This document shows, one piece after another, positions 42,991 through 58,864 of a stretch of 64,000 nt of DNA. The first letter of the stretch is position 1. Each line of letters begins with the position of its first letter. The position numbers and the translations under genes are program-made. This DNA comes from Aureimonas pseudogalii (GTDB lineage Bacteria > Pseudomonadota > Alphaproteobacteria > Rhizobiales > Rhizobiaceae): the NCBI RefSeq assembly GCF_014196835.1, contig NZ_JACIEK010000015.1, positions 1 to 64,000 on the forward strand. Direction: 5' to 3'. The notes below the pieces were generated by a model. It ran no database searches. It saw only the letters and a list, made by a program, of their open reading frames with translations, and was not told the DNA's origin.

Positions 42991-43022
42991 CTGTTGCGAA
43001 ACGCAACAGCTAAGTGCGCAGA
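42991..43022 (+). other. oriT: oriT: MobQ/RSF1010-type hairpin and nic-like site
   Basis: CTGTTGCG-AAA-CGCAACAG (42991-43009) is followed by CTAAGTGCG|CAGA. The RSF1010/R1162 origin has the same build: an inverted repeat followed by a (G)TAAATGCG|CCCT nic. The predicted cleavage lies between 43018 and 43019 on the + strand. The position between traA and traCDG is where Ti and Sym plasmids have oriT. The relaxase here is MobQ, as required. If correct, + strand DNA to the right of 43019 enters the recipient first. Confidence 0.72.
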
Positions 43023-43260
43023 CTGCCAAAACAGCCTGATGCTCGTGCGGTCGCTATGCGACCACATCTTCGAGCAGGGTCGCTTCGCTCCCGATGGCCA
43101 GCATGGGAGTGAGTGGGACGGCAGGTTGCGTACGCATGGCCTGGAGACAGATCACCGCCGTCGACCACGGTCATGAGAAAAACTTGGCATCGGTGCTGGC
43201 TTATGATGGATGGGAACGTGCCGAGTAGAACGCATTCGAACACGAAAGGGGACAAGTAAG

Positions 43261-43530
43261 ATGGCCAGACCCAAAGCGAACAACGAAGGGTCGCAATCGC
43301 GATCGGCCGTTCTGAGAAAACAGATGGATGATCTGAAGGCTGAGCTTCGACAAGTCGAAGTCGCCGAGGAAGCAGCCTTTGGAAAGATGGCGCGTAAGGC
43401 GGGCCTCTTCGAGCTGAATGTTCCTGACAAGGATCTGCGTGAGGCGGTCGCGTCGATGGTCGCGACGTTTCGCGGAAACGCGGGTCAGAAAGACGACACC
43501 GCTAAGAGACCGCAAACGGAAACTCCTTGA
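43261..43530 (+). CDS. traC: TraC-like accessory conjugation protein
   Basis: 89 residues. A basic N-terminus (MARPKANNEGSQSRSAVLRKQ) precedes a coiled-coil stretch (MDDLKAELRQVEVAEEAAFGKMARKAGLFELNV), matching the small TraC proteins of rhizobial plasmids that help the relaxosome. I chose the ATG at 43261. The open frame begins at a non-typical codon at 43210. It is the first gene of traC-traD-traG and is transcribed away from oriT. Confidence 0.8.
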   Translation: MARPKANNEGSQSRSAVLRKQMDDLKAELRQVEVAEEAAFGKMARKAGLFELNVPDKDLREAVASMVATFRGNAGQKDDTAKRPQTETP

Positions 43531-43543
43531 AGGGATAGCGGCG

Positions 43544-43768
43544 ATGCAAAGGGCTCTACGAAGAGCGGAAGCATGGCCCGCGGCAGACGCTCGACGCAAA
43601 GACGCTCATGAGAAGATCGGCCTTGGAGGTTTGGTGGTGAAAGCCGGACTGCGAGAAGCGGATAAGGCGTTCATCCTGGGCGTCCTCGTGGATGCCGCAT
43701 CGCGTATGTCGGACGGCGAGTATCGAGCTCGTATGACGGATCTCGGCAGAAGGAATTTCGGGCAATGA
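43544..43768 (+). CDS. traD: TraD-like accessory conjugation protein
   Basis: 74 residues. The rhizobial TraD core DAHEKIGLGGLVVKAGLREADKAFILGVLVDAA is clear. GAAGGGA precedes the ATG at 43544. The stop overlaps the TraG start (ATGA), so the two are coupled. In Ti-type plasmids TraD is a small relaxosome or coupling-protein helper of unclear mechanism. Confidence 0.82.
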   Translation: MQRALRRAEAWPAADARRKDAHEKIGLGGLVVKAGLREADKAFILGVLVDAASRMSDGEYRARMTDLGRRNFGQ

Positions 43769-45474
43769 TACGCAGGGAACCGGTGCCAACCGTATGGTGG
43801 GCATTCGCAGCGTTGGGGGTCGGGTTTGTCGGAACGGTCATAGCATGGGGATGGCTGTTCGCAGGCAAGTCCTGGATGGTGAGTTCAGGACAGATCATGT
43901 ACCTGAGCCCATCGAATGCGACCTACTGCCTTTGGCCATGGGACGTTCTCGACTGCCGCCGAATGTTCAGCCTGAACGGCTACGCCAACATGCGGAAAAT
44001 CACATCCTATCAATCAATCACGTTCGCGCCTCTGCTCACAGGCTTGACTGTCTTCAGTGTCGGTTTCTGGCAGCGCTGGCTTCGCCAGAAGGAAAGAATC
44101 ATCCTCGCGGGCCCGACCGTCTCCGATTTCAAGGGCCTCGTCGCGGCCAGCAAAGCCGAGCTGGGCAATGGCGGTCTGCCTATGTACGGCGAGTGGTCCC
44201 TTGGGGACCGGCGTGCTTTGAATGGGATGATCGTTTTTGGTGCCCAGGGTAGCGGCAAAACCAACCTGTTACGCCACCTGCTCCAGTCCGTGACGGACGC
44301 CGGTGATCGCAAGATCGTCTACGGGTACAAGTCGCACGTATATGCGCTGATGCCATGCGAGCTTGCAACAGCACAGGACACTGGCGGCGAGGGTGCCCTC
44401 ATCAACCCAGCGGACAAGCGTTCATGGGCTTGGGACATTTCAAGCGATTGTCGAACGCGGGCCGACTGCATCAACCTTGCAAAGCACCTTATCAAGAATC
44501 CAGAGTACGAGTACTTTGAGAAAGCGGGCCAAGGTGTCGCCGCCGTCGTCATCATCATGCTTCATACGCTCAAGCCGGGCGTTTGGACATGGCGGGATTT
44601 ATTCGACGCGTTCACGGCTCCGAAGGAGCAACTCGCAGAGTGGGCGAGTGAGTACCATCCGACCTCATTGATCTATATCGAGGTCGACGATCGCCAGTGG
44701 AACAGCACGCGCACCGGCATCCAGAACGCGATCAATAATTTCGAACTCCTGGCCATCGCCTGGGGAGATCAGAAGGGTAAGAAGCTTTTCTCGATTCATC
44801 GGTTCATGCAGGGGACTGGGCTCCCCAAGACCGTCGTGCTCGGTCATAGCGGACGCTTCGACGAGCTATCGGGTTCATGGATCGCGGCGTTCTTCACGAT
44901 CGCGGCAAAGTCGGTTTTCCACGAGAACTTCAAGCAGCCGGATGGACAGCGCACATGGTTCTTCCTCGACGAGTTTGCGCGTCTGGCGAAGATCGACGGT
45001 ATCGAAGAGCTGGTGAGCGCAGGGCGCGAGCGCGGTGCGCCTGTGGTCCTTGGCTTGCAGGATTTCCACGCAGTCGAGAAGGTGTACGGTCCCGAGGCGT
45101 TCAAGACGTGGATGTCTTCGATCCAGACGAAGGTCATCTGTCGAACGGAGCCTGGAGAGACTGCATCCTGGCTGATGCGTATTCTCGGATCGACGCGGAT
45201 CAAGGAACTCAGAACCAAGCCTTCGCAGAATGGGGGCACGACGCGAGAATGGCATGAGTACGAGGACAACGCCCTGCGTGACTCTGAAATGTCCTCAGAG
45301 CTTTTTTTGGTCGAGAACGTTGGGACTTGGGTCGTAGTCCTTGGCTACGGCCGGGATATGTATCGCGTCCTAGTCCCGTTTGTCGACCGCACCGAATTGC
45401 GCGAAGGGTATGTCGAAGCGGAATGGATCAAGGAGAAGCCGGCACCCAAGCCCATTCCGGAGGCGGCTGAATAG
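43765..45474 (+). CDS. traG: TraG/VirD4-type coupling protein
   Basis: 569 residues, somewhat shorter than Ti-type TraG (about 640). Two N-terminal membrane helices (about 10-33 and 81-105) are followed by Walker A GAQGSGKT (159-166) and Walker B TWFFLDEFARL (D402-E403). It links the relaxosome to the channel and is the expected reader of the BID signals on TraA and the Fic protein. No separate DotL/DotM-type coupling pair is present in the window, so this protein probably serves the type IVB channel. A terminator follows the stop. Confidence 0.9.
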   Translation: MIRREPVPTVWWAFAALGVGFVGTVIAWGWLFAGKSWMVSSGQIMYLSPSNATYCLWPWDVLDCRRMFSLNGYANMRKITSYQSITFAPLLTGLTVFSVGFWQRWLRQKERIILAGPTVSDFKGLVAASKAELGNGGLPMYGEWSLGDRRALNGMIVFGAQGSGKTNLLRHLLQSVTDAGDRKIVYGYKSHVYALMPCELATAQDTGGEGALINPADKRSWAWDISSDCRTRADCINLAKHLIKNPEYEYFEKAGQGVAAVVIIMLHTLKPGVWTWRDLFDAFTAPKEQLAEWASEYHPTSLIYIEVDDRQWNSTRTGIQNAINNFELLAIAWGDQKGKKLFSIHRFMQGTGLPKTVVLGHSGRFDELSGSWIAAFFTIAAKSVFHENFKQPDGQRTWFFLDEFARLAKIDGIEELVSAGRERGAPVVLGLQDFHAVEKVYGPEAFKTWMSSIQTKVICRTEPGETASWLMRILGSTRIKELRTKPSQNGGTTREWHEYEDNALRDSEMSSELFLVENVGTWVVVLGYGRDMYRVLVPFVDRTELREGYVEAEWIKEKPAPKPIPEAAE

Positions 45475-47296: not shown

Positions 47297-47602
47297 TCAG
47301 AGCTTGTTGAAGAGGTTCGCGACCACATCCACGGTGTACTGGCGGGCATCGCCCTCGCCGTAGGAGGTCTGTGCGACTCGGGCCTCGACGTAGACCGTAT
47401 CGCCCTTTGCGATGTTCTCTTCGATCCACTTGCGCTGGTTTTCCTCGAAAACCGTGACCGGAACCCAGTCGGTGCGCTCCCGGCGCTGACCATCTTCACC
47501 GGTCCAGGAGCGGTTGGTGGCGATCGAGACCTTGATGCAGCCGTTGAAGACGTTGATGGAGCCGACGTTGCCGAGAATGGTGAGGCGGTTGACCGAGCGC
47601 AT
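47297..47602 (-). CDS. ssb: single-stranded DNA-binding protein
   Basis: 101 residues, an OB fold without the long acidic tail of chromosomal SSB. Typical pattern: MRSVNRLTILGNVGSINVFNGCIKVSIATNRSW ... RTDWVPVTVFEENQRKWIEENIAKGDTVYVEARV. Plasmid SSBs coat incoming single strands and blunt the SOS response. AGGAG precedes the ATG at 47602. The longer open frame upstream (to 47743) is not needed. A structured element lies 60-117 bp upstream, and the gene is read in the direction that an incoming + strand would template. Confidence 0.9.
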   Translation of the reverse strand: MRSVNRLTILGNVGSINVFNGCIKVSIATNRSWTGEDGQRRERTDWVPVTVFEENQRKWIEENIAKGDTVYVEARVAQTSYGEGDARQYTVDVVANLFNKL

Positions 47603-48206: not shown

Positions 48207-48707
48207 CTAATCGTCGCGGCCGACAGGGACGAACCGGATCTCCTGAGCGGTGATGTTGATGCCGGTCTCTTCGTAGAGGTTCTCCAGAACGTCGTAGAGA
48301 CGATCCAGCTCGGGGAGCGGGATGCGGGTGGTGATCGGCATGTTGTCGTTGAGCGGGAGCCAGCGCCCGAAGGGCGCGATGCGGAACTCGTCCGTGGCAT
48401 TGTCGATGACCAGATGGTCGCCGAGGTGGACGGGTGCGTCGTTGAACGCTGCCATGTCGAAGGCGAGGGTGGCTTCCATGAGGTCATCGGAGATCGCCTC
48501 GCGTGCGGCGTCGTTCTTGGCCTCGTCGAAGGCGCGCTGTGCCTTGACGACGGTGGAAATGGTGTTGGTGATCGTCTGCAACTGCTCGATCGCCCTCGTA
48601 TGGTAGTCGCGTGCGACGGGATGATGCGTGAACATCAGCGAGGTGGAGATGAACCGGCTGGCGAAGGCCACGGTGTCGCGCAGCTTTTCGTAATCGTTCA
48701 AGGTCAT
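48207..48707 (-). CDS. hypothetical plasmid protein, 166 residues
   Basis: Not recognised. A soluble protein. The first ~100 residues are helical (EQLQTITNTISTVVKAQRAFDEAKNDAAREAISDDLMEATLAFDM). The rest looks like a small mixed domain (VIDNATDEFRIAPFGRWLPLNDNMPITTRIPLPELDRLYDVLENL). AAGGAG precedes the ATG. It is monocistronic, with its own terminator, and 95 bp upstream begins a copy of the covarying hairpin element (48792-48851). Confidence 0.7.
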   Translation of the reverse strand: MTLNDYEKLRDTVAFASRFISTSLMFTHHPVARDYHTRAIEQLQTITNTISTVVKAQRAFDEAKNDAAREAISDDLMEATLAFDMAAFNDAPVHLGDHLVIDNATDEFRIAPFGRWLPLNDNMPITTRIPLPELDRLYDVLENLYEETGINITAQEIRFVPVGRDD

Positions 48708-48791
48708 GTCGTAACTCCTTCATTTGGATGACGGAGTTCGCCCACACTGTAGTCCTGAGTGGTCAAGGACCGCGCGCGCGGCCGCCAGCGG

Positions 48792-48851
48792 CGGCGAGCG
48801 GGGGTGCCGATTTTCTCGATGCGCAGCGTCGTGAAAATTGGGGGGACCGCG
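48792..48851. promoter_or_regulatory. covarying hairpin element, copy A
   Basis: Nested stems: CCGATTTTC paired with GAAAATTGG around an apical CGATGC-GCA-GCGTCG hairpin. Conserved G-rich strands GGGGGTG and GGGGGGA flank the middle stem, and an outer GCGG/CCGC pairing encloses all. The same architecture with compensating base changes occurs at 57262-57321 and 58266-58310. It lies upstream of the leftward 166-residue gene. Confidence 0.7.
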
Positions 48852-49147
48852 ATGTCCTTGAGGACGGAGGGACGGGTGTAGAATACCCGAAGTCAGAGAG
48901 AGATAGCCCCGACCCCGAAGGGGGCGGGACCGCATGGATGGCGCCCGGTGTTTCCGGTGGGCTGAGGTTTGGCCTCGAGCTGGCGCGCATGTCGAAGCCT
49001 TCGTCTCTCCCGGCTTTTTGGGGCCGAGCCCGCGAAGCGGGAGAGGCTTGGCGAGGCAAAGCCGAGCGCGTGAGATGGGGTAATCGGTCGCCGCCGCTTT
49101 CCAACGTCGCTAGGCTTCCGGTGTTCTCATTCAACACGGAGCCGAAC
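48852..49147. other. non-coding left flank of IS110, candidate bridge-RNA region
   Basis: There is no gene before the transposase ATG at 49148. IS110-group elements encode a structured bridge RNA in the non-coding segment next to the transposase gene. This stretch contains several GC hairpins (for example CCCGCGAAGCGGG near 49030), but I cannot fix the left end of the element. Confidence 0.4.
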
Positions 49148-50188
49148 ATGCGCAAGGTGGTGGGTCTCGACGTTTCTCTCGAAAAGACGGCGGTTTGCGT
49201 CCTCGATCGCGACGGCACCCTGGTTTGGCAGGGCAAGGTGGGCAGCGAGCCCGGCCCGCTCATCGACAAGCTGAACCTCTGGAAGGCCGATCTCGATCTC
49301 GTCGGTCTCGAAGCATGTCCGCTGTCGGAATGGCTGCACCATCATCTGACAGACGCTGGGTTCCCGGTGGTCTGCGTCGAGACGCGCCATGCAGAGCGCT
49401 TCCTGTCGACCCGGCCCGTGAAGACCGATCGCAACGATGCGCGGGGGCTCGCCGAGATGATGCGCGTCGGGCACTACCGGGCCGTTCATGTGAAGTCGAT
49501 CGAGGCGCAGATGGTGCGAACCGTCCTCCAGGCGCGCCGCCAGATCGTCGCCGCGCTGATGCAGATCCAGGGTACGATCCGCGGCTTGCTACGAATGCAC
49601 GGTCTGAAGATGGGTGAGGTCCACCGGTGCAAGTTCGGCGATCGCGTTCGCGAGCTCGTCGCTGAGAAGCCTATGCTGGGAGCCGCCATCGATCCGCTCC
49701 TCCGTTCGGCCGAGGTCATGGCGACGGAGCGCAAAGCGATCGACCGACGCCTCGAACAGGCAGCACGTCGCGACGACGTGTGCCTTCGGCTGATGACCAT
49801 TCCCGGCGTAGGCCCGATCACCAGCCTGGCGTTCCGCGCCACAGTCGATGATCCGGCACGGTTCAGCGCGTCGAAGAGCGTCGGCGCTCTGATGGGCCTG
49901 ACGCCTCGCGTCTACCAGTCCGGCGAAACGGATCGATCCGGACACATCTCGAAGGCGGGCGACGACATGATGCGTCACCTTCTCTACGAGGCAGCCTCGG
50001 CGCTGATGACGCGCGTGCGCAAGCCGTCGAAGCTGAAGGCATGGGGCGTGGCGGTCGCGCGACGACGCGGCGCGAAACGCGCCCGTGTCGCGGTGGCCCG
50101 CAAGCTCGCGGTGATCATGCATCGAATGTGGATCGCCGGGACAAGGTTTGAGACCGGGGTGGAGGCGAAGACGCCGGCGGCCGCATAA
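49148..50188 (+). CDS. IS110-family transposase
   Basis: 346 residues. The N-terminal DEDD (RuvC-like) domain starts VVGLDVSLEKTAVCVLD, with the second acidic site in LVGLEACPLSEWL and DRNDARGLAEMM. The C-terminal Transposase_20 domain has the helix-hairpin-helix (LMTIPGVGPITSLAFRATV), and the conserved Ser region follows (GLTPRVYQSGETDRSGHISKAGD). It directs RNA-guided insertion without a classical DDE chemistry. The ATG at 49148 gives the canonical N-terminus. The frame upstream is chance. Confidence 0.95.
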   Translation: MRKVVGLDVSLEKTAVCVLDRDGTLVWQGKVGSEPGPLIDKLNLWKADLDLVGLEACPLSEWLHHHLTDAGFPVVCVETRHAERFLSTRPVKTDRNDARGLAEMMRVGHYRAVHVKSIEAQMVRTVLQARRQIVAALMQIQGTIRGLLRMHGLKMGEVHRCKFGDRVRELVAEKPMLGAAIDPLLRSAEVMATERKAIDRRLEQAARRDDVCLRLMTIPGVGPITSLAFRATVDDPARFSASKSVGALMGLTPRVYQSGETDRSGHISKAGDDMMRHLLYEAASALMTRVRKPSKLKAWGVAVARRRGAKRARVAVARKLAVIMHRMWIAGTRFETGVEAKTPAAA

Positions 50189-50575
50189 GAGCAGCGGCAC
50201 CAGCCTTCTAGCCACCATCCTGTCAGACCCGATCCTGGACGACGGGGACGGTCAGTCCGTCACGATCCCGGCGACGTCTCTTCCGAGATAAGCGCGCGCT
50301 GTGAGATTGGACGACCGAAGCCCCTCGAACCCCATCATGGGGCGGCCTGACGGCCAGACCCCGTACAGAAGCACGATCCAGGAACGTGGCCCATAAAGGG
50401 AAGCGACCCGCAGCCGAATGGCTTGCGGCGGCGATCGGACGCGCCTACCGGCAAGTTTCGACCCTTGTGAGACGTTGGACGCCTTCATAGACTGCTCGAA
50501 AGCAGACGCTTGGAAGCCTGTAAGCCAACGCCAAACCGTGTGGGTTTGATATTGTACCAATCTACTATTCTGAAC
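50189..50575. other. right flank of IS110 and intergenic DNA
   Basis: No gene supported. The right end of the IS110 element should lie in the first ~100 bases. At 50323-50345 there is a CGAACCCCATCATGGGGCGG stretch (CCCCAT/ATGGGG) related to the short repeats scattered through the following cargo. Confidence 0.4.
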
Positions 50576-50887
50576 ATGGCCTACGTCGGAGGTTACATTC
50601 TGATCCCATTCTTGGCGGCGCTTGTGACAAAGTATCAGTTCAAGCAGCGTAAGGTGTGGCACATCGCCTTTTTGTCGTACTTGGCCATTCCAATCGTCAA
50701 TTTCGCCATCTACGCCTCGGTTCCAGAAGAAATGATCACCAATTCGCTGACACATTATCGTGGGAACGAATGGATTCCGCCCAGTGATCATATCATCGAC
50801 GTCGCGTTTTTCGTTGTGATGATGGCAGTTCCTGTGACGCTGGCAACTCTCCAGGTGCGAATGTCGAAGTCCTGTAAGGAGGTCTAG
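50576..50887 (+). CDS. small membrane protein, unknown
   Basis: 103 residues from the ATG at 50576 with three hydrophobic segments (MAYVGGYILIPFLAALV, VWHIAFLSYLAIPIVNFAIYA, IIDVAFFVVMMAVPVTLATL). A TTG at 50510 would add 22 residues. The composition is less GC-rich than the neighbours. No family recognised. It lies at the left of the chromosome-like cargo after IS110. Confidence 0.5.
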   Translation: MAYVGGYILIPFLAALVTKYQFKQRKVWHIAFLSYLAIPIVNFAIYASVPEEMITNSLTHYRGNEWIPPSDHIIDVAFFVVMMAVPVTLATLQVRMSKSCKEV

Positions 50888-51206
50888 CGTCTGTTTGTCC
50901 TTTGGGACTGTGCCTAACCGGACGGTCGTCTTTCCACCCATCTTTCGCGTTGGCAGACGGTCAGCTTTCGACCCCATCATGACGTAGGATGGCATCGCCA
51001 GACCTACCAAGAGCAGTCGTTCCGCGAAGCCGCGTTGACACGTATGCCCGACCGCTGACAAGTTCGGGACTGGCAGGTGCCGCCAGCCGCTCGCATCCAC
51101 ATGGATATGGTGAAGGCACCGAGATATGACCGTCACCGGATAGTCCGCCCGGCAATGGATCGGCAATGCGAGCCCCGACGACCCGTTGCCGGCGCGAGGA
51201 CCTGTC
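50888..51206. other. intergenic region with dispersed repeats
   Basis: No gene. 50919-50982 carries one copy of a short repeat (CGGACGG...CTTTCCACCCA...GTTGGCAGACGG followed by TTTCGACCCCATCATGACG). Related copies occur at 52939 and 54852, and partial ones near 50317 and 51793. Confidence 0.5.
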
Positions 51207-51740
51207 ATGCCGACAATCGACCAAGCCAAGTCAATGGCCAAGCGGCTGCGATCCGCATTGGCTACTAAGGAGATCGACGTCTCCCACGCCACCAGCCTCG
51301 AACTCGTCGCAGTGGAGCTCGGGTACCGCGACTGGAACACCGCCTCGGCGGTTCTCGAGCCCGAGCGACTAGGTCCGGTTTTGTTCGAGCAGGCGATCCC
51401 GATCCTGCGCATTTTCGACGTTCCGAAGGCACGGGAGTTCTATTGCGGTTTTCTCGGCTTCGGCGTGACGATGGAGCACCGCCACGAGCCGGGGCTGCCC
51501 CTCTACATGGCGATCGAACGGGCAGGCCTTGAGCTTCATCTCAGCGAGCACCACGGCGATGCCAGTCCTGGCTCCACGGCTTTCGTTTGGACCAGGGGCA
51601 TCCAGGCCTACCATGCCGAATTGACTGGCAAAGCGTATGGATACGGACGTCCTGCGATCGAGCGATTGCCCTGGGGCGACCAGCTCCAGGTCCATGACCC
51701 GTTCGGAAACCGCGTCAGGTTCTGCGAACGGCGAACGTAG
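51207..51740 (+). CDS. glyoxalase/bleomycin-resistance-like protein with an N-terminal extension
   Basis: 177 residues from the ATG at 51207 behind GAGG. The first ~55 residues (TIDQAKSMAKRLRSALATKEIDVSHATSLELVAVELGYRDWNTASAVL) form a helical domain often fused to this glyoxalase superfamily type. The rest is a VOC fold (AIPILRIFDVPKAREFYCGFLGFGVTMEHR ... LELHLSEHHGDA ... VHDPFGNRVRFCE), as in bleomycin-binding proteins. The metal-type His/Glu positions are partly present, so it may bind a ligand rather than catalyse. Confidence 0.85.
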   Translation: MPTIDQAKSMAKRLRSALATKEIDVSHATSLELVAVELGYRDWNTASAVLEPERLGPVLFEQAIPILRIFDVPKAREFYCGFLGFGVTMEHRHEPGLPLYMAIERAGLELHLSEHHGDASPGSTAFVWTRGIQAYHAELTGKAYGYGRPAIERLPWGDQLQVHDPFGNRVRFCERRT

Positions 51741-51854
51741 GTCTGCGAAAGTCGATAGCGGCGCGTTCGAAAGGTAACTGCGATCGTCCGCCCGCTCTCG
51801 ACCCCATAAAGACATGCGATGGCCGATATCCACCACTTGGAAGCGGACGTTCCT

Positions 51855-52871
51855 TTAGGCGGCTTCCCTGAGCAAGCCTTCAGCGAAGGTCTGTCCGCGC
51901 TCACAAAGAACCCGATGGCTAGCCGCATCAATGTTCGAACCACAGACCACGAGCGCCACTCGCTTTCCAGCTAAACGAGCGCGAAGCGGACCAAGCGCGC
52001 CAGCCAACGCGGCAGCGGCTGCGGGCTCTACGGCTAAACGGGCTTGCTCTTGCATGACGACGAGGGCCGCGCAGATTTCATCATCAGAAACCGTAACCAC
52101 GTCATCGACATAATGAGCGATCAGCGACAGGCTGAACGGGAGCGACATCGGTGGAGCGAGGCTGTCGGCAATCGTATCCGTTCGGTCGAGTGAAACCGGT
52201 CCGCTCGCGGCGAGACCCCGTGAGACCGCATCGGCGCCTAGCGGTTCTACCCCGTAAACCGCACACTTCGGGTTCACTAGTTTCACAGCCGCGGCAACGC
52301 CGCTGATCAGGCCCCCGCCGCCGACCGCGACGACGACTGCATCAAGCTCGTGGACGTCTTCCATGACCTCAAGACCCACGCCCGCGGTTCCCAAAGTGGT
52401 GTTCATTCCCTCGAACGGGTGGATGAACGAAAGGCCTTCCTCGCGCACTAGCCGTTCGGCTTCGGAGAAGGTCGCCGCGCCTGGTGGCATCAGGACGACC
52501 TCTGCTCCTTCGTCTCGAGCCTGTCTGATGCGAAAGGGGTTGGCCGTAGACTGCATGACGACCTTCGCATTCACGCCCTGTTGCCGAGCGGCCCATGCCA
52601 CCGCGATAGCATGGTTGCCGGCACTCGCTGCCGTCACGCCGTGTCGCCTTTCCTCTGATGTCAGCGACTGCATGACCGAAAGAGCCCCGCGAGCCTTGAA
52701 CGTACCCGTATGCTGGAAGGCCTCAAGCTTCAGATAGAGCCTTGCATGATCAAGCGTTCGCTGCAGCGAAGGCGACACTAATTCCACGGACGGCGTACGA
52801 AGGATCGAGGTTGAAAGATCTCGATGCCGCGACCGGATCTGAGTGAGTGATATGTCTTGCGGATTGGCCAT
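51855..52871 (-). CDS. PLP-dependent threonine/serine dehydratase-like enzyme
   Basis: 338 residues of fold type II. The PLP lysine is in AFQHTGTFKARGA, the phosphate loop in AVGGGGLISG and the Asn in TAASAGNHAIAVAWAA. It would deaminate threonine or serine to 2-oxo acids, or act as a hydroxyaspartate dehydratase or racemase. There is no ACT domain, unlike biosynthetic IlvA. ATG at 52871 behind GGTGGAAAG. It appears to be chromosomal-type metabolic cargo, with no operon partner. Confidence 0.85.
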   Translation of the reverse strand: MANPQDISLTQIRSRHRDLSTSILRTPSVELVSPSLQRTLDHARLYLKLEAFQHTGTFKARGALSVMQSLTSEERRHGVTAASAGNHAIAVAWAARQQGVNAKVVMQSTANPFRIRQARDEGAEVVLMPPGAATFSEAERLVREEGLSFIHPFEGMNTTLGTAGVGLEVMEDVHELDAVVVAVGGGGLISGVAAAVKLVNPKCAVYGVEPLGADAVSRGLAASGPVSLDRTDTIADSLAPPMSLPFSLSLIAHYVDDVVTVSDDEICAALVVMQEQARLAVEPAAAAALAGALGPLRARLAGKRVALVVCGSNIDAASHRVLCERGQTFAEGLLREAA

Positions 52872-53003
52872 AGGGCTTTCCACCTTCCTCAGGCTCCAAG
52901 CGTGCAATGGCAGTTTGGCTCAATTTTCGTCCGAAAGCTGCCAGTCTCTTTTCCACCCAGTGACGTCTTTCCACTAAGGCAGCCCAGTCCGTGCCGCATC
53001 CGT

Positions 53004-53450
53004 TCACCGGGTTGCAGCGACGAGGCCGAAGACAGCAGCCGCCAGCGCTAGAACGATGCGGACCCAGTGCACGGCGAGCCAGGCATCGAGCTGGCCCGGA
53101 ACATCATCGACCGCGATGGCGCCCTGGTTGAACGTTGCATTGATCGGGAAGAAGTAGGCGACTGTCAGACCGAGAAGTACGGCGATGCATCCCAGTGCGG
53201 CAAGCCACAGATTGCGGATGCTGGCATCCCCCCATGACAAGACGATTGAACCGACGAGACCGAAGATCGTCGGCCCGACCACAAGCGGGATCGTGCGGAC
53301 GATGAGGCCACTGTTCGCCGCGAACCATGTGAGAAAGTCAGCGGGAGGTAAGCTCCGCCAGAAGGGGCCGAGGATCAGGGCGATCGCGAGCATCACGCCT
53401 GCAAAGGCGGCCGAACCGACGACGGCGAGGATCTGAAACGGGAGGATCAT
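53004..53450 (-). CDS. DUF1772/anthrone-oxygenase-like membrane protein
   Basis: 148 residues, four membrane helices (about 5-27, 45-70, 80-102, 125-146). The DUF1772 pattern is seen in LPPADFLTWFAANS and AYFFPINATFNQGA. Members are small membrane proteins linked to anthrone-oxygenase-like or unknown redox functions. It is divergent from the MarR gene, which probably represses it through the palindromes at 53476-53517. I use the ATG at 53450, preceded by GGAAGG. Confidence 0.8.
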   Translation of the reverse strand: MILPFQILAVVGSAAFAGVMLAIALILGPFWRSLPPADFLTWFAANSGLIVRTIPLVVGPTIFGLVGSIVLSWGDASIRNLWLAALGCIAVLLGLTVAYFFPINATFNQGAIAVDDVPGQLDAWLAVHWVRIVLALAAAVFGLVAATR

Positions 53451-53475
53451 GGAGCCACCTTCCAATGGATCGAGA

Positions 53476-53517
53476 TTGACACTATGATGTCAACCTACAT
53501 TTCGACATCATGATGTC
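53476..53517. promoter_or_regulatory. two palindromic operators for the MarR-type regulator
   Basis: TTGACACTATGATGTCAA (53476-53493, imperfect) and GACATCATGATGTC (53504-53517, perfect) lie between the divergent DUF1772 and marR genes, with the shared half-site TGATGTCA. Such paired sites are typical MarR operators. Confidence 0.75.
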
Positions 53518-53541
53518 AAATTGAAAAGCCGAGTTTCATCG

Positions 53542-54018
53542 ATGCCCGACAGATCTCATTCCGCTGAGGCGTTGACGGAACTCGTCTTGACGCTCTTCCG
53601 CGTTAATAACGCGACGCTGGTTTGGGGTGATAGACTGGTCCAGCCATTCGGGCTGACGAGTGCGCGTTGGCAGATTATGGGCGCCATCGCCTATGCCGAA
53701 CGGCCCCGGACCGTGGCTTGGCTTGCCCGCGACCTCGGCGCTAATAGGCAGAACGTCCAGCGGATCGTGAACGAGCTGGAGAAGGACGGGCTGGCAGGCT
53801 TCGTACCTAACCCTCACCACAAGCGGGCGCAGCTCGTGGTTCTGACCCCGTCGGGGAGGCAGGCTTACGAAAGAGCAGTCGAGGTCTGGTACCCCGCCGC
53901 CGACGAGCTGGCGAAGGAGCTCAAAAAGGAGGACTTGGCGACAGCCCTGCACGTCCTCAATACCCTCCGTGGCAAGCTGGGCGCGGGCAACGACGGGGAG
54001 GACGAGGCGGTTATTTAA
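53542..54018 (+). CDS. MarR-family transcriptional regulator
   Basis: 158 residues from the ATG at 53542 (a TTG at 53521 would add seven). The winged helix is clear: LTSARWQIMGAIAYAERPRTVAWLARDLGANRQNVQRIVNELEKDGLAGFVPNPHHKRAQLVVLTPSG. Dimer helices lie at both ends. It probably represses itself and the divergent DUF1772 gene via the TGATGTCA palindromes. Confidence 0.88.
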   Translation: MPDRSHSAEALTELVLTLFRVNNATLVWGDRLVQPFGLTSARWQIMGAIAYAERPRTVAWLARDLGANRQNVQRIVNELEKDGLAGFVPNPHHKRAQLVVLTPSGRQAYERAVEVWYPAADELAKELKKEDLATALHVLNTLRGKLGAGNDGEDEAVI

Positions 54019-54223
54019 CCGGCGACGATCAGGAAGGTGAACCGACGTCCGTTTCGCCTGAGAGTTCGGAGCCCGGAGAATGCGACGGGATCGTTGCGAC
54101 ATCCGGTGGCAGAAGCCGTTAGCCAATCGTGTGACTCCGACCCGCAAGGACGATCACAGCTTTGGGCGGGTTCGCCCAAAGCTGCCGCTTTTAGATGTGG
54201 GTATGCGCCTTGACGGACTCAGC

Positions 54224-54646
54224 CTAGATGCCGAAGGTCACGAGGCCACGATCATCGATCGTCCATGCCGGGTTCCAAGCGATCTCCCATGCATAGCCAT
54301 CTGGATCGGCGACATAGCCGCGAAAGCCGCCATGGGGTGGCGCGTCGGCCTTGCGCAGAAGCGTTCCTCCCGCCCCGACGAGACGCTGCACGACCAGGTC
54401 GACATCAGCCTGGTCGGCAACGTTGTGAGCGAGGGCGAACGCCCCGGGAGCCGGCTGGCTCGGACGCTGTATATCCTCGTCAAGACCCGGATTTGCCCAA
54501 GTTCCCAGCACGAAGCCGTTCATCTGGTAGAAGGCGATATCGTCGTTCTCGAAGACCGGAGCCCAACCGAAGCCGTCGGCATAGAACTGCCGAGATCGTG
54601 CAAGCGAAGCAACGCCGAGAGTGATGACCGAAATCTGTTGCTGCAT
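54224..54646 (-). CDS. VOC-family (glyoxalase-like) protein
   Basis: 140 residues, a two-repeat VOC fold (ISVITLGVASLARSRQFYADGFGW ... DIAFYQMNGFVLGTW ... GGFRGYVADPDGYAWEIAWNP). Conserved Glu in EIAWNP. Substrate unknown. Single gene within the cargo after IS110. Confidence 0.87.
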   Translation of the reverse strand: MQQQISVITLGVASLARSRQFYADGFGWAPVFENDDIAFYQMNGFVLGTWANPGLDEDIQRPSQPAPGAFALAHNVADQADVDLVVQRLVGAGGTLLRKADAPPHGGFRGYVADPDGYAWEIAWNPAWTIDDRGLVTFGI

Positions 54647-55038
54647 GTTCCAAGCCCCATGGTTCGCCCGAGCGTGGTCGCTTCGGACGTTCGAGGTCTT
54701 GGGCCGTCACCATAGCGACGGAAGGACCCGCTTTCGCGGGGGCCGGGCCAACCGCACCGACCTAACCTGTTTCAGACGTTGAGGGTGCTGCACGCTTTTG
54801 CGGCTGCCATCAAGCGGTCGAATGTCAGCTCGACGGGCATGACGTCCAAGAGCGGACGGACCTCTTTCCACCCATTTTCCCCATTGGCGGACGTCGCCAG
54901 ATTGGCGCTTGACGATCAAGGACCGATTACAGAAGTGATCGTGACCCGAAGGGACGAGACCCCTTCGGGGGCTCGGGTCGCGCAGCGACTAGAGCCCGGC
55001 CCGAAGGGTCACGCCCGGACCTTGCTGCGCTGGCTGAA
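54647..55038. other. non-coding region with a cargo repeat and a structured element
   Basis: No gene. 54852-54893 is a copy of the dispersed TTTCCACCCA repeat, the last before backbone sequence resumes. 54940-55013 is the first copy of the 74-bp structured element annotated separately. Confidence 0.5.
54940..55013. repeat. 74-bp structured repeat, copy 1
   Basis: Outer stem CGTGACCC/GGGTCACG encloses a CCCTTCGGGG hairpin and a second hairpin, GGGCTCgGGTCGC-GCA-GCGACtaGAGCCC. The second copy at 59715-59787 differs only by one substitution and one deleted C. Each copy lies 25-40 bp beyond the stop codon of a leftward gene (55039 and 59826). Confidence 0.8.
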
Positions 55039-55455
55039 TCACTGCGAGAAAGCTGCGGCGACGACGATCTTCTGGATCGCCTTCTCTTCCCGGGCCGACA
55101 GCTTGAGGGCCTTTTCTGCCCGATCGTAGCGAACGGTGGCTTTGGGCAGGGTCATGTACTCCACGGGCTCCCAGCCCATGCGTTTGCTGGCGGTGTTGTC
55201 GAGGTGGTAGCCGCTGATGTCGATGGCACCGCACTCGGCGAGCTTGCGAGGTGAGGGTTTGGCCCGGAATGCCTTCCAGCAATCCTGACTGGCGCCGTTG
55301 AGGCCGCCCATGCCGGACTGCTCATAGGTTTTCTGGAAGATGGCGACACCTCGCTGTGCGCCTTTGCGGGCCTCGGAGAGGCTATCGGCTTCTGCGGTTT
55401 GGACGCCGACGAGGGTTGCTGCTGCGAGGATGACCAAGAGGGTGTTTTTGCGCAT
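55039..55455 (-). CDS. secreted hypothetical protein
   Basis: 138 residues with a signal peptide (MRKNTLLVILAAATLVGVQTAEA). The mature part is helical with two cysteines (SQDCWKAF and AECGAID) and a basic C-terminal helix (YDRAEKALKLSAREEKAIQKIVV). No family recognised. The open frame continues upstream to 55785, but the signal peptide fixes the start at 55455. A structured repeat follows its stop. Confidence 0.65.
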   Translation of the reverse strand: MRKNTLLVILAAATLVGVQTAEADSLSEARKGAQRGVAIFQKTYEQSGMGGLNGASQDCWKAFRAKPSPRKLAECGAIDISGYHLDNTASKRMGWEPVEYMTLPKATVRYDRAEKALKLSAREEKAIQKIVVAAAFSQ

Positions 55456-55604
55456 GGACGATTTCCGCGATGGCTGAATTGGCAAACGACTGTCGGTGGC
55501 CAATGGTATCGCGGATCCCAGCGGAGTGTGGAGCTTTGCTCTGGGTGAGCGCGCATAAAAAGGGGGGCGCAAGGCCCCCTTGGGATGCTGGTGTCGAAGA
55601 GGTG

Positions 55605-56024
55605 TTAGTCGAAACGCTCGATCTTGGCAGACCCGGATGCCATCAACGGTTTCATGGCGGCGGCGATCTTGGCGAGGAAACCTTTGCTGAAGGAGCCTCG
55701 GACCTCGACGTTTGGGTTGTAGTAGTAGGATCGCTCGGCAATGTCGTAATTGTATTCCGACACGAGGATCCACGCCTGTTTCCATTCTCGTAGACCGGCA
55801 CGTCGTATCTCGAGCAATGGGATTTCGAGGGCGGTCTGGTCCGATCGTGGCGGTTCGCCAGAGATGGCCAGCAGCACGAGGTTCGTGACGTTACGGCCCG
55901 GAATGGCGAGGAGAAGGCAAACCGGGCGCTCGGACTTTCGGCCCTCGGTCTCGCCTCGATCCCGCTGCCATCCGAATAGATAGGAATAGGGGATGATCGA
56001 CCCTGACTTGGGAACGTCAGTCAT
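55605..56024 (-). CDS. PemK/MazF-like toxin
   Basis: 139 residues. The pattern GSIIPYSYLFGWQRDRGETEGRKSERPVCLLLAI ... VLLAISGEPP ... EIRRAGLREWKQAWILVSEYNYD fits a divergent PemK/MazF-type barrel, normally an mRNA endonuclease. It overlaps the upstream Phd/PemI-like antitoxin by eight bases. Catalytic residues are not certain in this branch. Confidence 0.7.
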   Translation of the reverse strand: MTDVPKSGSIIPYSYLFGWQRDRGETEGRKSERPVCLLLAIPGRNVTNLVLLAISGEPPRSDQTALEIPLLEIRRAGLREWKQAWILVSEYNYDIAERSYYYNPNVEVRGSFSKGFLAKIAAAMKPLMASGSAKIERFD

Positions 56025-56274
56025 GGGACTCGTTCCCTTCCGCGATCAATCGATCCAGTTCGGGGAGGATCATGGCAGCGAGGTCAGGCGGTGTTTCTCC
56101 AGCGCCGTAGACCATCCGCGGGTCGGACTGCGCTTTCATCGCCGCGAAATCATCGTAGGTCATGAGGACGTAGCGCGGCTTGCGGTGTTGAGTGATGGCG
56201 ACGGGCTGGCGATCAGCGGCCATGGTCACGGTTTTGATGTCGCGAAGCAGTTCGACGGTTGAGAACTTCTGCAT
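56017..56274 (-). CDS. Phd/YefM-like antitoxin
   Basis: 85 residues from the ATG at 56274 with AAGGAGG just upstream. N-terminal DNA-binding domain MQKFSTVELLRDIKTVTMAADRQPVAITQHRKPRYVLMTYDDF is typical of Phd/YefM. The C-terminal helix binds the toxin. It forms an operon with the PemK-like gene and should repress its own promoter. Confidence 0.82.
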   Translation of the reverse strand: MQKFSTVELLRDIKTVTMAADRQPVAITQHRKPRYVLMTYDDFAAMKAQSDPRMVYGAGETPPDLAAMILPELDRLIAEGNESHD

Positions 56275-56417
56275 GAACGCCTCCTTTGGATAAGTCGTAA
56301 TATACAAACATTCCGATTTTTCATCAAGCGGAGCGCGCTTGGTTTGGTCGAGTCTGGCGATTTCGCATCACAATGTTCCCGGCGCTTGGTTAGGTTCGAG
56401 ACATTGCGCCGACGGTG

Positions 56418-56439
56418 GTTGGAGGCGACAGCCTCCAAC
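56418..56439 (-). terminator. hairpin after the antirestriction gene
   Basis: GTTGGAGGC-GACA-GCCTCCAAC, 30 bases after the stop of the leftward ardB-like gene. There is no clear U-tract, so it may slow or protect the transcript rather than fully terminate. Confidence 0.5.
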
Positions 56440-56468
56440 TTGGTCGGGCGTTTCGTGTTGGGCGGGGC

Positions 56469-56903
56469 CTAGTCGATGGCGCGAAAGATCGTGCGGGCCT
56501 CGGGGTGATCGAGGGCGAACTCCCGCAGGCGGTGGAAGGCATCCGCCATGAGGTCGGTGGGGTCGTCGAAGGACAGGCTGGAGAAGGCGAGAAGGCAGGC
56601 GATGATGCCGGCGGCGTCGGTTGACACGATGCCTTCGAAGCCGTTGCCGTGCCACTGGATACCGATCCGGCCCTCGCCGTCATGGCGCATGTAGAGCGGC
56701 TTGCCGTCGAGCTCGAGGAAGTCCCATAGGCCGCCGCGATACTCGGGGCTGAGCTGACCCATGACGTTGTAGATGGTAGCCTCGCCGGCGACCATGCGGC
56801 GGGGTCCGAAGAGTGCGGGCAGAAAGGTCATGCGCCGGCTGTCGGCCACGATGCTGGCGGCCTGCGGACGGTTCGGGATGGCGGTGGCGGTCGCTTCGGA
56901 CAT
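56469..56903 (-). CDS. ArdB/KlcA-type antirestriction protein
   Basis: 144 residues. Pattern RRMTFLPALFGPRRMVAGEATIYNVMGQLSPEYRGGLWDFLELDGKPLYM, then STDAAGIIACLLAFSSLSF, characteristic of ArdB/KlcA, which blocks type I restriction of incoming plasmid DNA. GGAG precedes the ATG. A 47-residue gene lies upstream on the same strand, and a copy of the covarying hairpin precedes that unit. Antirestriction genes typically sit in leading regions, as proposed for this side of oriT. Confidence 0.87.
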   Translation of the reverse strand: MSEATATAIPNRPQAASIVADSRRMTFLPALFGPRRMVAGEATIYNVMGQLSPEYRGGLWDFLELDGKPLYMRHDGEGRIGIQWHGNGFEGIVSTDAAGIIACLLAFSSLSFDDPTDLMADAFHRLREFALDHPEARTIFRAID

Positions 56904-57032
56904 GGGGATCTCCAGAAGGTGTGAGGATCGGCCCGACGTCTCTCTCTGGTCTGACGGGCTCGCCCGTCACGCCCTTCCTCGAACTCTGGTGGCGGCTGCG
57001 GCTGTCGGCCAGTGACGACACGAGAAGGAGGC

Positions 57033-57176
57033 TTACGCCTCCGCCTCCTTCGCCGCGGCCTCGGCGAGGAGCTTCTCGAGGTTGCGGAGGGTCTCGGCGC
57101 GCTCGCGCTTGGTGAGGAGGCAATGCGCCAGCTCGGCGCGGTGTTCAGCGATGTCGAAGTAGATGTCGTAGGTCAT
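57033..57176 (-). CDS. 47-residue helical protein, paralogue of the gene at 58042
   Basis: Sequence begins MTYDIYFDIAEHRAELAHCLL and continues TKRERAETL. It is highly charged and predicted all-helical with an Ala/Glu/Lys-rich tail. It has a strong ribosome site (AAGGAG). Its paralogue at 58042-58179 shares the (T/I)YDI..(D/E)IAE.RAELA.C.LTKRER pattern, the leader (CCTGACCC..TTC.CCCTTACCCGTG) and the hairpin upstream, so the whole module is duplicated. Function unknown. It lies 130 bp upstream of the ardB-like gene. Confidence 0.7.
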   Translation of the reverse strand: MTYDIYFDIAEHRAELAHCLLTKRERAETLRNLEKLLAEAAAKEAEA

Positions 57177-57261
57177 TGTGCTGCTCCTTCGTTGATGACG
57201 AAGGAAGGGCACGGGTAAGGGTGAAGAGGGTCAGGGATCGCGGCACGCGACCGGCGGAGTC

Positions 57262-57321
57262 GGCGATGGGGGAGCCGATTTTCTCGTCGCGAAGCGGCGT
57301 GAAAATTGGGGGAACCATCGT
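57262..57321. promoter_or_regulatory. covarying hairpin element, copy B
   Basis: Outer stem CGATGG (57262-57267) pairs with CCATCG; the middle stem is CCGATTTTC/GAAAATTGG; the apical hairpin is CGTCGC-GAA-GCGGCG. The conserved G-rich strands GGGAG and GGGGA sit between outer and middle stems. It lies 86 bp upstream of the leftward 47-residue gene. A TTGACG...TATCAT promoter-like pair pointing right begins just beyond it (57324). Confidence 0.75.
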
Positions 57322-57323
57322 CC

Positions 57324-57416
57324 TTGACGATCGAGACCGTCCCGTATCATGGGCAGTCATCAGGGAGGAAAGGGTAGGTATGGCGCTGGTTGGCAACCCG
57401 CGCCGCCTCGCGGCGC
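57324..57416 (+). promoter_or_regulatory. rightward promoter, ribosome site and hairpin, copy 1
   Basis: TTGACG and TATCAT (spacing about 15) are followed by GGAGGAAAGG, an ATG at 57380 and the hairpin GCGCCGC-CTC-GCGGCGC (57400-57416). The stretch is repeated at 58315-58406. The encoded start MALVGNPRRLAAPQG is almost the same in the second copy (TTG start, ALVGTPRRLAAPRG), while the downstream codons differ. The unit may be a leader peptide with an attenuator-like hairpin. Confidence 0.5.
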
Positions 57417-57443
57417 CGCAGGGGACTGCAACGACCGAGAGCT

Positions 57444-57890
57444 TCAGGCGGCCGCGGCCTGATCTGCCTGATCGACCAGCGCCTGTTCACTTTTTCGCTT
57501 CTCGAAAGTGGTCTTGATCGATGTCCAATCGATCATCGCGGTCATTCTGTCGGCTTTGCTGACGGGCTCGACCGGGTTGCCATCGATGTCGTGACGCATG
57601 GCGTCCGGCTGGGCGACGGCGAACAGATAGGACCGGCTGCGAACGTATTTTCGGATCGCGCGACTGACGTCGGACCACTTGGCGTCGGGCTTCATGCGCG
57701 CCTTGATCTCGGCGCCGATCCCGATCGCGAAGGGTCGCATGATCCCGTCGGTGCTGTCTGGCAGAACCGCAATCGGCGCGATCAGGAACAGGTTGATGGT
57801 TTTGGCGACTTCGACGTTGTGAGCGGTGGCGTTGATCGGACCACGCTTCTTGGTCCAGAGAGCGGGGGGCTTGGGGGCCGTGTCGGTCAT
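57444..57890 (-). CDS. ProQ/FinO-domain RNA chaperone
   Basis: 148 residues. The FinO/ProQ domain spans about 30-120: INATAHNVEVAKTINLFLIAPIAVLPD..GIMRPFAIGIGAEIKARMKPDAKWSDVSRAIRKYVRSRSYLFAVAQPDAMRHDIDGNP. FinO-type proteins bind stem-loop RNAs with U-tails and stabilise antisense RNAs. A plasmid copy could control transfer through an antisense RNA. I use the ATG at 57890 behind GAGGACG. A structured stretch (57906-57965) lies directly upstream. Confidence 0.88.
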   Translation of the reverse strand: MTDTAPKPPALWTKKRGPINATAHNVEVAKTINLFLIAPIAVLPDSTDGIMRPFAIGIGAEIKARMKPDAKWSDVSRAIRKYVRSRSYLFAVAQPDAMRHDIDGNPVEPVSKADRMTAMIDWTSIKTTFEKRKSEQALVDQADQAAAA

Positions 57891-57905
57891 CGCGTCCTCG
57901 AATAT

Positions 57906-57965
57906 GGATTGCGGTCCCGCAGACCAGCACTGGTCGCCGCCGGCGTATGCCGCTTGTATCAATCC
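57906..57965. promoter_or_regulatory. multi-stem structured region upstream of the proQ/finO gene
   Basis: GGATTG (57906) pairs with CAATCC (ending 57965) around two hairpins, GACCAG-CA-CTGGTC and CCGGC-GTAT-GCCG. It begins 16 bp before the gene. It may be a leader RNA bound by the protein itself or a single-strand promoter. This reading is an inference. Confidence 0.4.
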
Positions 57966-58041
57966 GCGGCGCGCAAGTCAGCGCGGTCCTGTGCCCGTGG
58001 CGGGCATTTTAAGATAGGGACGGCCGACAAGGAAAGGAGGC

Positions 58042-58179
58042 TCACGCCTCCGCCTCCTTCGCCTCGACTTCGAGGACGGCGAGGCGCTTCAGGCTCTCCC
58101 AGCGCTCGCGCTTGGTGAGGAAGCAGGAAGCCAGCTCGGCGCGCAGTTCAGCGATTTCGGCGAAGATGTCGTAGATCAT
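58042..58179 (-). CDS. 45-residue helical protein, paralogue of the gene at 57033
   Basis: Starts MIYDIFAEIAELRAELASCF and continues LTKRERWESLKRL. Charged, all-helical, ending in KEAEA like its paralogue. Strong AAGGAG site at the ATG 58179. It is about 60% identical to the 47-residue protein over the first 27 residues and is preceded by the same kind of leader and hairpin (copy C). Function unknown. It lies upstream of proQ/finO on the same strand. Confidence 0.7.
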   Translation of the reverse strand: MIYDIFAEIAELRAELASCFLTKRERWESLKRLAVLEVEAKEAEA

Positions 58180-58265
58180 GGGAAGCTCCTTCGTTGGATA
58201 GGAGATCCGGCCACGGGTAAGGGCGAAGGGGGTCAGGGATCGCCGTGAGGCGACCGGCGGCGCCG

Positions 58266-58310
58266 GCGATGGGGGAGCCGAAATGCGCAGCATTTTGGGG
58301 GGACCATCGT
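58266..58310. promoter_or_regulatory. covarying hairpin element, copy C
   Basis: Outer stem CGATGG/CCATCG as in copy B. The middle stem has changed on both sides to CCGAAATGC/GCATTTTGG with a GCA loop, and the apical hairpin is absent. The G-rich strands GGGAG and GGGGGGA are kept. It lies 87 bp upstream of the leftward 45-residue gene. Confidence 0.75.
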
Positions 58311-58314
58311 CCTT

Positions 58315-58406
58315 GACGCCCGAGGCCGTCCCGTATGATGCCGCCTATTCAGGGAGGGAAAGGTCCAGCTTGGCGCTGGTCGGCACCCCGCGCCGCCTTG
58401 CGGCGC
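58315..58406 (+). promoter_or_regulatory. rightward promoter, ribosome site and hairpin, copy 2
   Basis: TTGACG and TATGAT, then GGGAGGGAAAGG, a TTG at 58370 and the hairpin GCGCCGC-CTT-GCGGCGC (58390-58406). Compare 57324-57416. Only the first ~15 codons and the hairpin are conserved. Confidence 0.45.
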
Positions 58407-58420
58407 CAAGAGGGGCTGGC

Positions 58421-58792
58421 TTAACGGCCGCCCTGGAACAGGAAGGTGAAGCGATAGGGCATGGACTCACGGGCACCATTCCGCGCTGTCCTATCGGGGC
58501 TCGCTCTAGTCAGGGTCAGTTGACCGTCGGCGACCGGAACGGGTGCTCCGAGCGTCAGGTCCAGAACCTTTTCCCATCCGCCGCCGATCACCGTGACACG
58601 CACGATCAGCCGTCCAGCATGGACGCATTGGACGTCGACGGGGCAACGGCTGTCCTCAACGACGCGATCGGGACGCACGCGCGGGCCATCGGCATAGGCC
58701 GTTTGGCCCAAGCCAACGGGCCCTTCGATCGGCTGGGCCAGAGCGACGTTGGTGAGGCAGCATAGAGCTGAAGCTGTGAGAGATAGGTTCAC
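58421..58792 (-). CDS. secreted hypothetical protein
   Basis: 123 residues from a GTG. Signal peptide (NLSLTASALCCLTNVALA). The mature domain has a cysteine pair in the motif DSRCPVDVQCVHAGRLIVRVTV and a DGQLTLTRASPD strand. This pattern recurs in small exported alphaproteobacterial proteins of unknown role. It starts next to an intercistronic hairpin (58837-58862) after the membrane-protein gene upstream. Confidence 0.7.
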   Translation of the reverse strand: MNLSLTASALCCLTNVALAQPIEGPVGLGQTAYADGPRVRPDRVVEDSRCPVDVQCVHAGRLIVRVTVIGGGWEKVLDLTLGAPVPVADGQLTLTRASPDRTARNGARESMPYRFTFLFQGGR

Positions 58793-58836
58793 GCCGATGT
58801 CCGTGGCGGCGGTCGAGGAAGGCCGCTGGGCGAGGT

Positions 58837-58862: not shown

Positions 58863-58864
58863 GT

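Follow-up and report, generated by a model that had tools for sequence, protein, structure and literature searches.

A cloverleaf-folding element upstream of leading-region genes in alphaproteobacterial plasmids, a candidate family of Frpo-like single-strand promoters

The stretch of DNA analysed here, referred to below as the window, comprises 64,000 nucleotides (nt) of Aureimonas pseudogalii (positions 1 to 64,000 of contig NZ_JACIEK010000015.1) and carries three copies of one plus-strand element on the leading side of a predicted origin of transfer (oriT). With a probability that we put at about 0.82, this element represents a new family of single-strand promoters, similar in kind to the Frpo promoters of plasmid F, that would serve leading genes and present RNA polymerase with a -10 box that is already melted. 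The features that bear on this judgement were all computed, and include the fold and the strand that favours it, the covariation of its stems, the promoter boxes, the position of a duplex fork, the distance to the next gene and the location on the leading side. The first-pass annotation of the window had raised the idea of a promoter family active on single-stranded DNA (ssDNA), and the sequence evidence set out below supports it.

Fold, covariation and favoured strand

Elements 1 to 3 are each predicted to fold as ssDNA into a four-way cloverleaf, which consists of a closing stem (P1), two hairpins (P2 and P3) and a long hairpin (P4). The arms of P1 read GTCARGGA and TCCTTGA, while P4 is built from an outer and a middle stem with a purine internal loop between them. 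A further stem, P0, is formed outside the cloverleaf by the pairing of its 5' and 3' flanks, as ACGGG with CCCGT in the second and third copies. Fold energies of the window copies, calculated for DNA, lie 2.5-4.3 standard deviations under those of dinucleotide shuffles. Nested hairpins had previously been described at 48792, 57262 and 58266, with conserved G-rich strands and with middle and outer stems that change on both sides between copies. All of these attributes are present in the sequence and the hairpins are real, but they make up only the P4 arm; P1, P2, P3, P0 and the -35 and -10 boxes had been missed.

A covariance model, R1, was built from 11 copies, namely the three in the window and eight from four plasmids. 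Its matches amounted to 142 rows. Of these, 4 that scored under 50 bits were excluded, as were 16 that came from eight loci, overlapping with one another, in two genomes (L009, L010, L020, L021 and L023-L026). The resulting 122 rows hold 112 distinct cores, 111 of them flanked on either side by 60 nt or more, and these in turn yielded 57 representatives with less than 75% flank identity.

Covariation of the stems extends to the wider alignment. Among 90 distinct aligned rows, 18 of the 30 stem pairs show a two-sided change in at least one row, and two-sided cells number 148 against a shuffled mean of 30.5, a count that none of 500 shuffles reached. This alignment was fitted to the model and thus leans towards the structure. 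Sliding the pair partner by 1-3 columns abolishes the signal, and the first 11 rows, aligned with MAFFT, contain 5 pairs and 14 cells with two-sided changes (shuffled, 3.1 and 4.3). In 44 of the 90 rows the outermost pair of P1 does not form, and for four of the eight P1 pairs there are rare copies with both sides changed.

The plus strand, that is, the one carrying GTCARGGA...TCCTTGA, is predicted to outfold its complement in all 111 distinct copies with flanks, by a mean of 11.3 kcal/mol over the 57 representatives. This preference arises because G-T pairs at fixed places, found in P1 in 60 of 90 rows and in P4 in 67 of 90, would be A-C on the complement. As in the Frpo and ssi elements, the fold is therefore favoured on the transferred strand (T-strand), an identity that rests here on the nick polarity of RSF1010-type sites.

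The same strand preference bears on the idea that the element is a structured RNA, such as a 5' leader regulator, or a protein-bound operator common to leading genes. Such a role would fit the covarying conserved structure and the conserved purine internal loop of P4; the leftward transcript, however, would hold the complement, which folds worse in 111 of 111 copies, and the geometry of the -10 and -35 boxes would be left unaccounted for. Rfam 15 gave no matches in the window at gathering level and, with E up to 10, three chance-level matches on 57150-58450. The earlier proposal of an RNA element in the leftward transcript is weakened to the same extent, as is that of a riboswitch of one gene, given the many unrelated families behind the element. 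We regard a structured RNA or operator as extremely improbable; a leader RNA or riboswitch was rejected on account of the strand and of the variety of genes. A plasmid protein may nevertheless bind the P4 loop as a helper.

Promoter boxes, the P0 fork and the genes behind them

The TTGA of the P1 3' arm supplies a -35-like hexamer, and an ANNNT box of the -10 type lies 14-21 nt past it in all 57 representatives. In 500 shuffles this figure averaged 16.7 of 57 and never exceeded 28, and when the left arm is read the other way ANNNT is found in 13 of 57; the box is present in all 111 distinct copies, and the right flank had played no part in finding the elements. The spacer to the best box measures 17 nt in 23 representatives, 15 nt in 16, 18 nt in 8, 16 nt in 4, and 19 and 20 nt in 3 each, the optimum for -35/-10 spacing being near 17 nt. 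The discriminator also shows a preference, with G at -6 in 27, G at -5 in 41, G at -4 in 34 and A at -3 in 32 of the 57. In the parts of the literature consulted, A-11, T-7 and G-6 are described as base-specific contacts in the open complex (PMC4593229, PMC3753650). A consensus promoter scan of 47000-59000, which required at least 9 of 12 matches and a spacer of 16-18 nt, did not list the boxes of the elements. As in Frpo and ssi, sigma70-type boxes are presented by the fold and face the leading gene, the direction being taken from fold geometry. A conserved purine run (GTCAGAGAGAGA or CTGAGCAGA) occupies about +6 to +11 after the -10 box on the T-strand, at 48890-48900 and in right flanks generally.

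The flanks pair with one another better than exchanged flanks do. Over the 57 representatives the mean is -15.5 kcal/mol for a copy's own flanks against -10.95 kcal/mol for swapped ones (p about 1e-12), and for 31 of the 57 the own pairing ranks in the top 10% of swaps. Averaged over all 57, the pairing probability along the right flank is 0.54 at -12 and drops to 0.15 at -11. With a pair at -16..-21 required as the anchor of P0, 42 copies qualify; of these, -13 is paired in 35, against an expectation of 18.1 from swapped left flanks; -12 is paired in 37, against 28.0, and -11 in 6, against 6.0 (5 of 40 by another anchor rule). Nearer or farther anchors give the same picture in 40-44 copies. 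What is informative about the fork is that -13 and -12 pair more often than expected, and a pairing excess that runs up to -12 and ends there is the junction of double and single strand of an open promoter. An outer helix beyond the bubble, hinted at by some flank duplexes, is absent from the average profile and was dropped.

In 105 of the 111 copies, a leftward open reading frame (ORF) of at least 30 amino acids (aa) begins at a distance of 48-65 nt and is equipped with a Shine-Dalgarno site and an ATG. On the right side, one copy of 111 has an ORF start at that distance and 20 have one at any distance, without clustering. Starts were sought 25-160 nt away with no preference, and an earlier count that favoured about 53 nt gave the same 105 of 111. 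Among the 42 copies where an RNA start can be placed, its predicted position is 20-37 nt upstream of the ATG in all but two. For the window copies, the position upstream of leftward genes had been seen in the first pass, the hairpin coordinates given there lying 85-87 nt from the start codons at 48707, 57176 and 58179. The proteins behind the element fall by eye into about a dozen unrelated small families, and ten that were tested have no Pfam or PHROGs matches.

These boxes might alternatively belong to an ordinary double-stranded DNA (dsDNA) promoter that points rightward (TTGAC-N15-18-YANNNT on the plus strand) and yields an antisense or small RNA, with the cloverleaf as the site of an upstream regulator. 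Loci L028, L032 and L004 do have rightward WGR genes on the right of the element, at distances of 268, 207 and 414 nt, respectively, and the -35 box, -10 box and discriminator read correctly on the plus strand. Such a promoter would nonetheless leave unaccounted for both the pairing of the left flank with the spacer up to -12 and the leftward start codon at a near-constant distance. Rightward ORF starts are few and unclustered, as noted above, and convergent right-hand neighbours are seen for the elements of L005 (three), L007 (two), L027, L033 and L034. We hold a rightward promoter to be unlikely as the function of the element. The WGR genes themselves (at 20379 in L028, 20306 in L032 and 12551 in L004) might be driven by the same boxes during the dsDNA phase.

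Leading-region location and spread

The predicted nick of the window lies between traA, which runs leftward, and traC, which runs rightward. A like layout between traA and traC occurs in six Ti-type plasmids; both layout and polarity are alike in pAoF64/95, a Ti plasmid, and Ancylobacter, Xanthobacter, Roseibium and Sinorhizobium plasmids. In L030 and L031 the layout was recognised by eye in the sequence, not by script pattern. The plus strand to the right of the nick is taken as the T-strand, which places the three elements 5.7, 14.2 and 15.2 kb into the leading region.

The enrichment just inside leading regions that the first-pass annotation had proposed to look for is borne out. With the element oriented plus, the relaxase gene, sought by tblastn with a TraA, MOBF or MOBP query, lies on the left and on the minus strand in all 30 loci (of 100) that show one, and the coupling protein lies on the left in all 35 that show one. 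The best matches to ArdC and DUF736 lie on the right in 26 of 28 and 44 of 46 loci, respectively. By Pfam the relaxases are of three types, MobA/MobL in the window, TrwC in L083 and a MobA/VirD2-like Relaxase in L033. The loci are not independent, because many plasmids share a backbone, and the three relaxase types and several orders are a better measure of spread than the locus count. As with Frpo and ssi, then, the element is found in the leading region upstream of leading genes, with 70 of the 100 loci not placeable by relaxase.

Within its own genome (5.0 Mb, 53 contigs) no copies of the element were found beyond the three in the window. Three-fold occurrence is not chance, since these are the only genome matches, plasmid relatives are many and the covariation is two-sided. 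BLAST with three query stretches found relatives in 309, 366 and 514 of 72,556 plasmid records, mostly from Rhizobium, Agrobacterium and Sinorhizobium, and also from Sphingobium, Methylobacterium, Paracoccus, Roseibium, Xanthobacter and others. A strict P1 plus P2 pattern was matched by at least 119 stretches in 84,980 species genomes; the 80 loci taken from these are alphaproteobacterial by title except for one metagenome-assembled genome labelled Verrucomicrobiales. Scans with R1, run with stricter filters and with 9 or 13 candidates scored per genome, found the element in 10 of the 297 genomes scanned for the order and in 14 of the 398 scanned for the phylum, counting the genome of the window itself, and none of the 14 lies outside the class. 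The pattern had no match in 2.9 million viral contigs, phage records gave a single weak match (35 query bases, E 0.01), and BLAST of element 2 against 20,395 E. coli records returned nothing. Twelve whole plasmid records (about 2.2 Mb), the search that had been called for at the outset, were scanned end to end with R1 under stricter filters and gave 18 matches, on one strand per record and all at sites already found.

Three copies on contigs of about 1-3 Mb were examined. A relaxase and a coupling protein are encoded near those in L083 and L095, and L081 has a SLOG-family gene resembling that of other leading regions; all three copies apparently belong to integrated conjugative elements.

Mechanism, objections and related systems

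We infer from these features that the element would be used by RNA polymerase, would act in the recipient and would be switched off on conversion to dsDNA. As the T-strand enters the recipient, P1-P4 would fold into the cloverleaf and the flanks would close P0. The 3' side of the fold would then serve as the non-template strand, with the -35 box (TTGAC/G) located within the P1 duplex and at its foot, the spacer running through P0, and the -10 box (YANNNT) beginning at the P0 end, so that A-11 onward would already be unpaired. Host RNA polymerase holoenzyme would bind this ready-made upstream fork junction, read the 5' flank of that strand as its template and transcribe leftward into the leading gene, giving a leader of predicted length 20-37 nt with a Shine-Dalgarno site. 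Synthesis of the complementary strand would abolish the fold and with it the promoter. Melting, the usual control step, would in effect be replaced by folding, and the genes would therefore fire at entry and be silent once the second strand is made. That the element forms a separate, class-wide family of ssDNA-only promoters offering an opened fork, duplex to -12 and single-stranded from -11, is a narrower claim that we think somewhat more probable than its opposite.

On that narrower claim, the element would mark uncharacterised genes for establishment and for anti-defence that are carried by Ti, symbiotic and catabolic plasmids. If the promoter reading is true, the family would point to uncharacterised leading genes that probably aid plasmid establishment. 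Since it spans rhizobia, agrobacteria, sphingomonads, acetic acid bacteria and Paracoccus and three relaxase types, it would also make early expression from the entering strand far more widespread in conjugation, and a naturally pre-melted promoter would provide a precise physical model.

Several points weigh against the promoter reading, beginning with the plausibility of the P1 3' arm as a rightward dsDNA promoter. A spacer of 15 nt is found in all three window copies, P0 can be anchored in only 40-44 of 57 representatives, depending on the rule, and the minimum-energy fold of element 1, where P0 is weak, includes a small competing hairpin around the -10 box. Low pairing at -11 is no evidence of selection, since that position is a fixed A by choice of the box, and -8 pairs above expectation (18 of 40 against 11.3, 15 of 42 against 10.3). 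The promoter model does not account for the conserved purine stretch of the 3' flank, and the folds were predicted for DNA free of single-strand binding protein (SSB). The T-strand call on the window rests on what we take to be the nick position and polarity of RSF1010-type sites. Beyond the window, the shared backbones count here as well, and 70 of 100 loci, mostly only 8 kb long, have no visible relaxase. Records typed non-mobilizable make up 107 of 309, 69 of 366 and 134 of 514 of those with a relative, and in three loci so typed (L006, L027 and L029) no relaxase was seen annotated near the element; this typing misses at least one plasmid, a Ti plasmid with an annotated traA.

The element might instead be a single-strand initiation site at which RNA polymerase or primase makes a short second-strand primer, the nearby gene being incidental. 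A T-strand-specific fold is compatible with priming, and the cited accounts report that Frpo primes as well as transcribes (PMC7736820, PMC7690428). Priming would require neither a constant distance to the Shine-Dalgarno site and ATG of unrelated genes nor copies before separate genes, and the two roles are compatible with each other. Priming alone strikes us as very unlikely, and second-strand priming may be an added role of the promoter, as reported for Frpo.

Single-strand promoters have been demonstrated for F and ColIb-P9, according to the portions of the reports consulted (PMC9849209, PMC11541004, PMC7736820, PMC7690428), and Frpo of F is described there as needed for early leading-gene expression (PMC9849209). 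Like Frpo1 and Frpo2 of F and ssi2 and ssi3 of ColIb-P9, as these sources present them, the element is a T-strand fold upstream of leading genes that presents -35 and -10 boxes and occurs in more than one copy per leading region. The F element is described as a stem-loop of 328 bp in which the -10 and -35 boxes are double-stranded (PMC7690428), whereas the one found here, in alphaproteobacterial hosts, is a cloverleaf of about 100 nt with a purine loop and P0, in which the -10 box is predicted to be unpaired beyond -12 and -11 is paired in 5 of 40 or 6 of 42 copies. For the double-stranded state of the Frpo boxes we rely on that review (PMC7690428), because our own simple scan of Frpo1 and Frpo2 could not place -35 and -10 boxes on the 3' arm. 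Membership in Frpo by sequence was rejected, in that R1, run with filters off on 17.5 kb of the F leading region, scored 15.1 bits at best and element 2 had no E. coli match.

RNA polymerase also starts on folded ssDNA at the M13 complementary-strand origin and at plasmid sso, where it makes primers; the element described here differs in standing at a fixed distance from start codons. The ssi sites have been likened to sso in the review text consulted (PMC7690428). A leading-region survey of 2024 is reported to have used five known Frpo/ssi sequences as queries and to have looked for consensus boxes in four islands, adding further single-strand promoters by likeness to the known ones and, in a few islands, by such boxes (PMC11541004); the words Alphaproteobacteria, Rhizobium and Agrobacterium are absent from its main text. 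Literature searches, mostly of titles and listings and with subscription journals and preprints outside their scope, turned up no description of such an element.

Table 1. Features of the window, and of related loci where indicated
Feature	Position	Strand	Details
Element 1 cloverleaf	48762..48862	+	P1 5' arm 48762-48769, 3' arm 48855-48861; R1 106.4 bits (copy in model); fold z -4.26
Element 1 boxes	48858..48884	+	-35 TTGAGG 48858-48863, spacer 15, -10 TAGAAT 48879-48884
Element 1 P0	48744-48747 with 48876-48879	+	weak, by eye
Element 2 cloverleaf	57230..57328	+	P1 57230-57237 with 57321-57328; R1 107 bits (copy in model); fold z -2.53
Element 2 P4			hairpin at 57262 in the first-pass annotation
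Element 2 boxes	57324..57350	+	-35 TTGACG 57324-57329, spacer 15, -10 TATCAT 57345-57350
Element 2 P0	57211-57215 with 57341-57345		ends at -12 base; predicted leftward RNA start near 57199
Element 3 cloverleaf	58232..58317	+	P1 58232-58239 with 58310-58317; R1 88.2 bits (copy in model); fold z -2.54
Element 3 boxes	58313..58339	+	-35 TTGACG 58313-58318, spacer 15, -10 TATGAT 58334-58339
Element 3 P0	58213-58217 with 58330-58334		predicted leftward RNA start near 58201
Gene behind element 1	48207..48707	-	166 aa, no Pfam or PHROGs family
Small gene behind element 2	57033..57176	-	47 aa
ArdB-type antirestriction protein, next same-strand gene behind element 2	56469..56903	-	Pfam PF03230
Small gene behind element 3	58042..58179	-	45 aa
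ProQ/FinO-family protein, next same-strand gene behind element 3	57444..57896	-	Pfam PF04352; in leading region
Predicted oriT nic	42991..43019	+	inverted repeat CTGTTGCG/CGCAACAG, then CTAAGTGCG^C; leading region to right
Relaxase TraA (MobA/MobL + RecD-type helicase)	39068..42934	-	Pfam PF03389, PF13604
TraC-like protein	43210..43530	+	Pfam PF07820
Coupling protein (TraG/TrwB type)	43765..45474	+	Pfam PF10412
SSB, typical of leading regions	47297..47602	-	PF00436 on ORF 47297-47743; start by eye
ardC-upstream region	L005 38150-38510, L028 33890-34240, L030 28475-28825, L031 29480-29875, L027 22120-22480		

The SSB gene is on the same strand as the gene behind element 1 and farther from the element. 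Directly to the right of element 1 is an IS110-family transposase ORF (48728-50188; PF02371, PF01548), whose open frame crosses the element and whose transposase domains start at about residue 145.

In sphingomonad plasmids, leftward leading genes are preceded by another conserved folded element, also G-rich (L007 8949-9043 and 10999-11080; L033 23494-23587). It scores only 16-21 bits with R1 and shows no like -35/-10 layout by eye, and its T-strand fold is also the better one. No such layout was seen by eye either in a conserved intergenic region of about 300 nt upstream of ardC, which contains inverted pieces such as CCCGTCACGG/CCGGGACGGG and is possibly another leading-region element.

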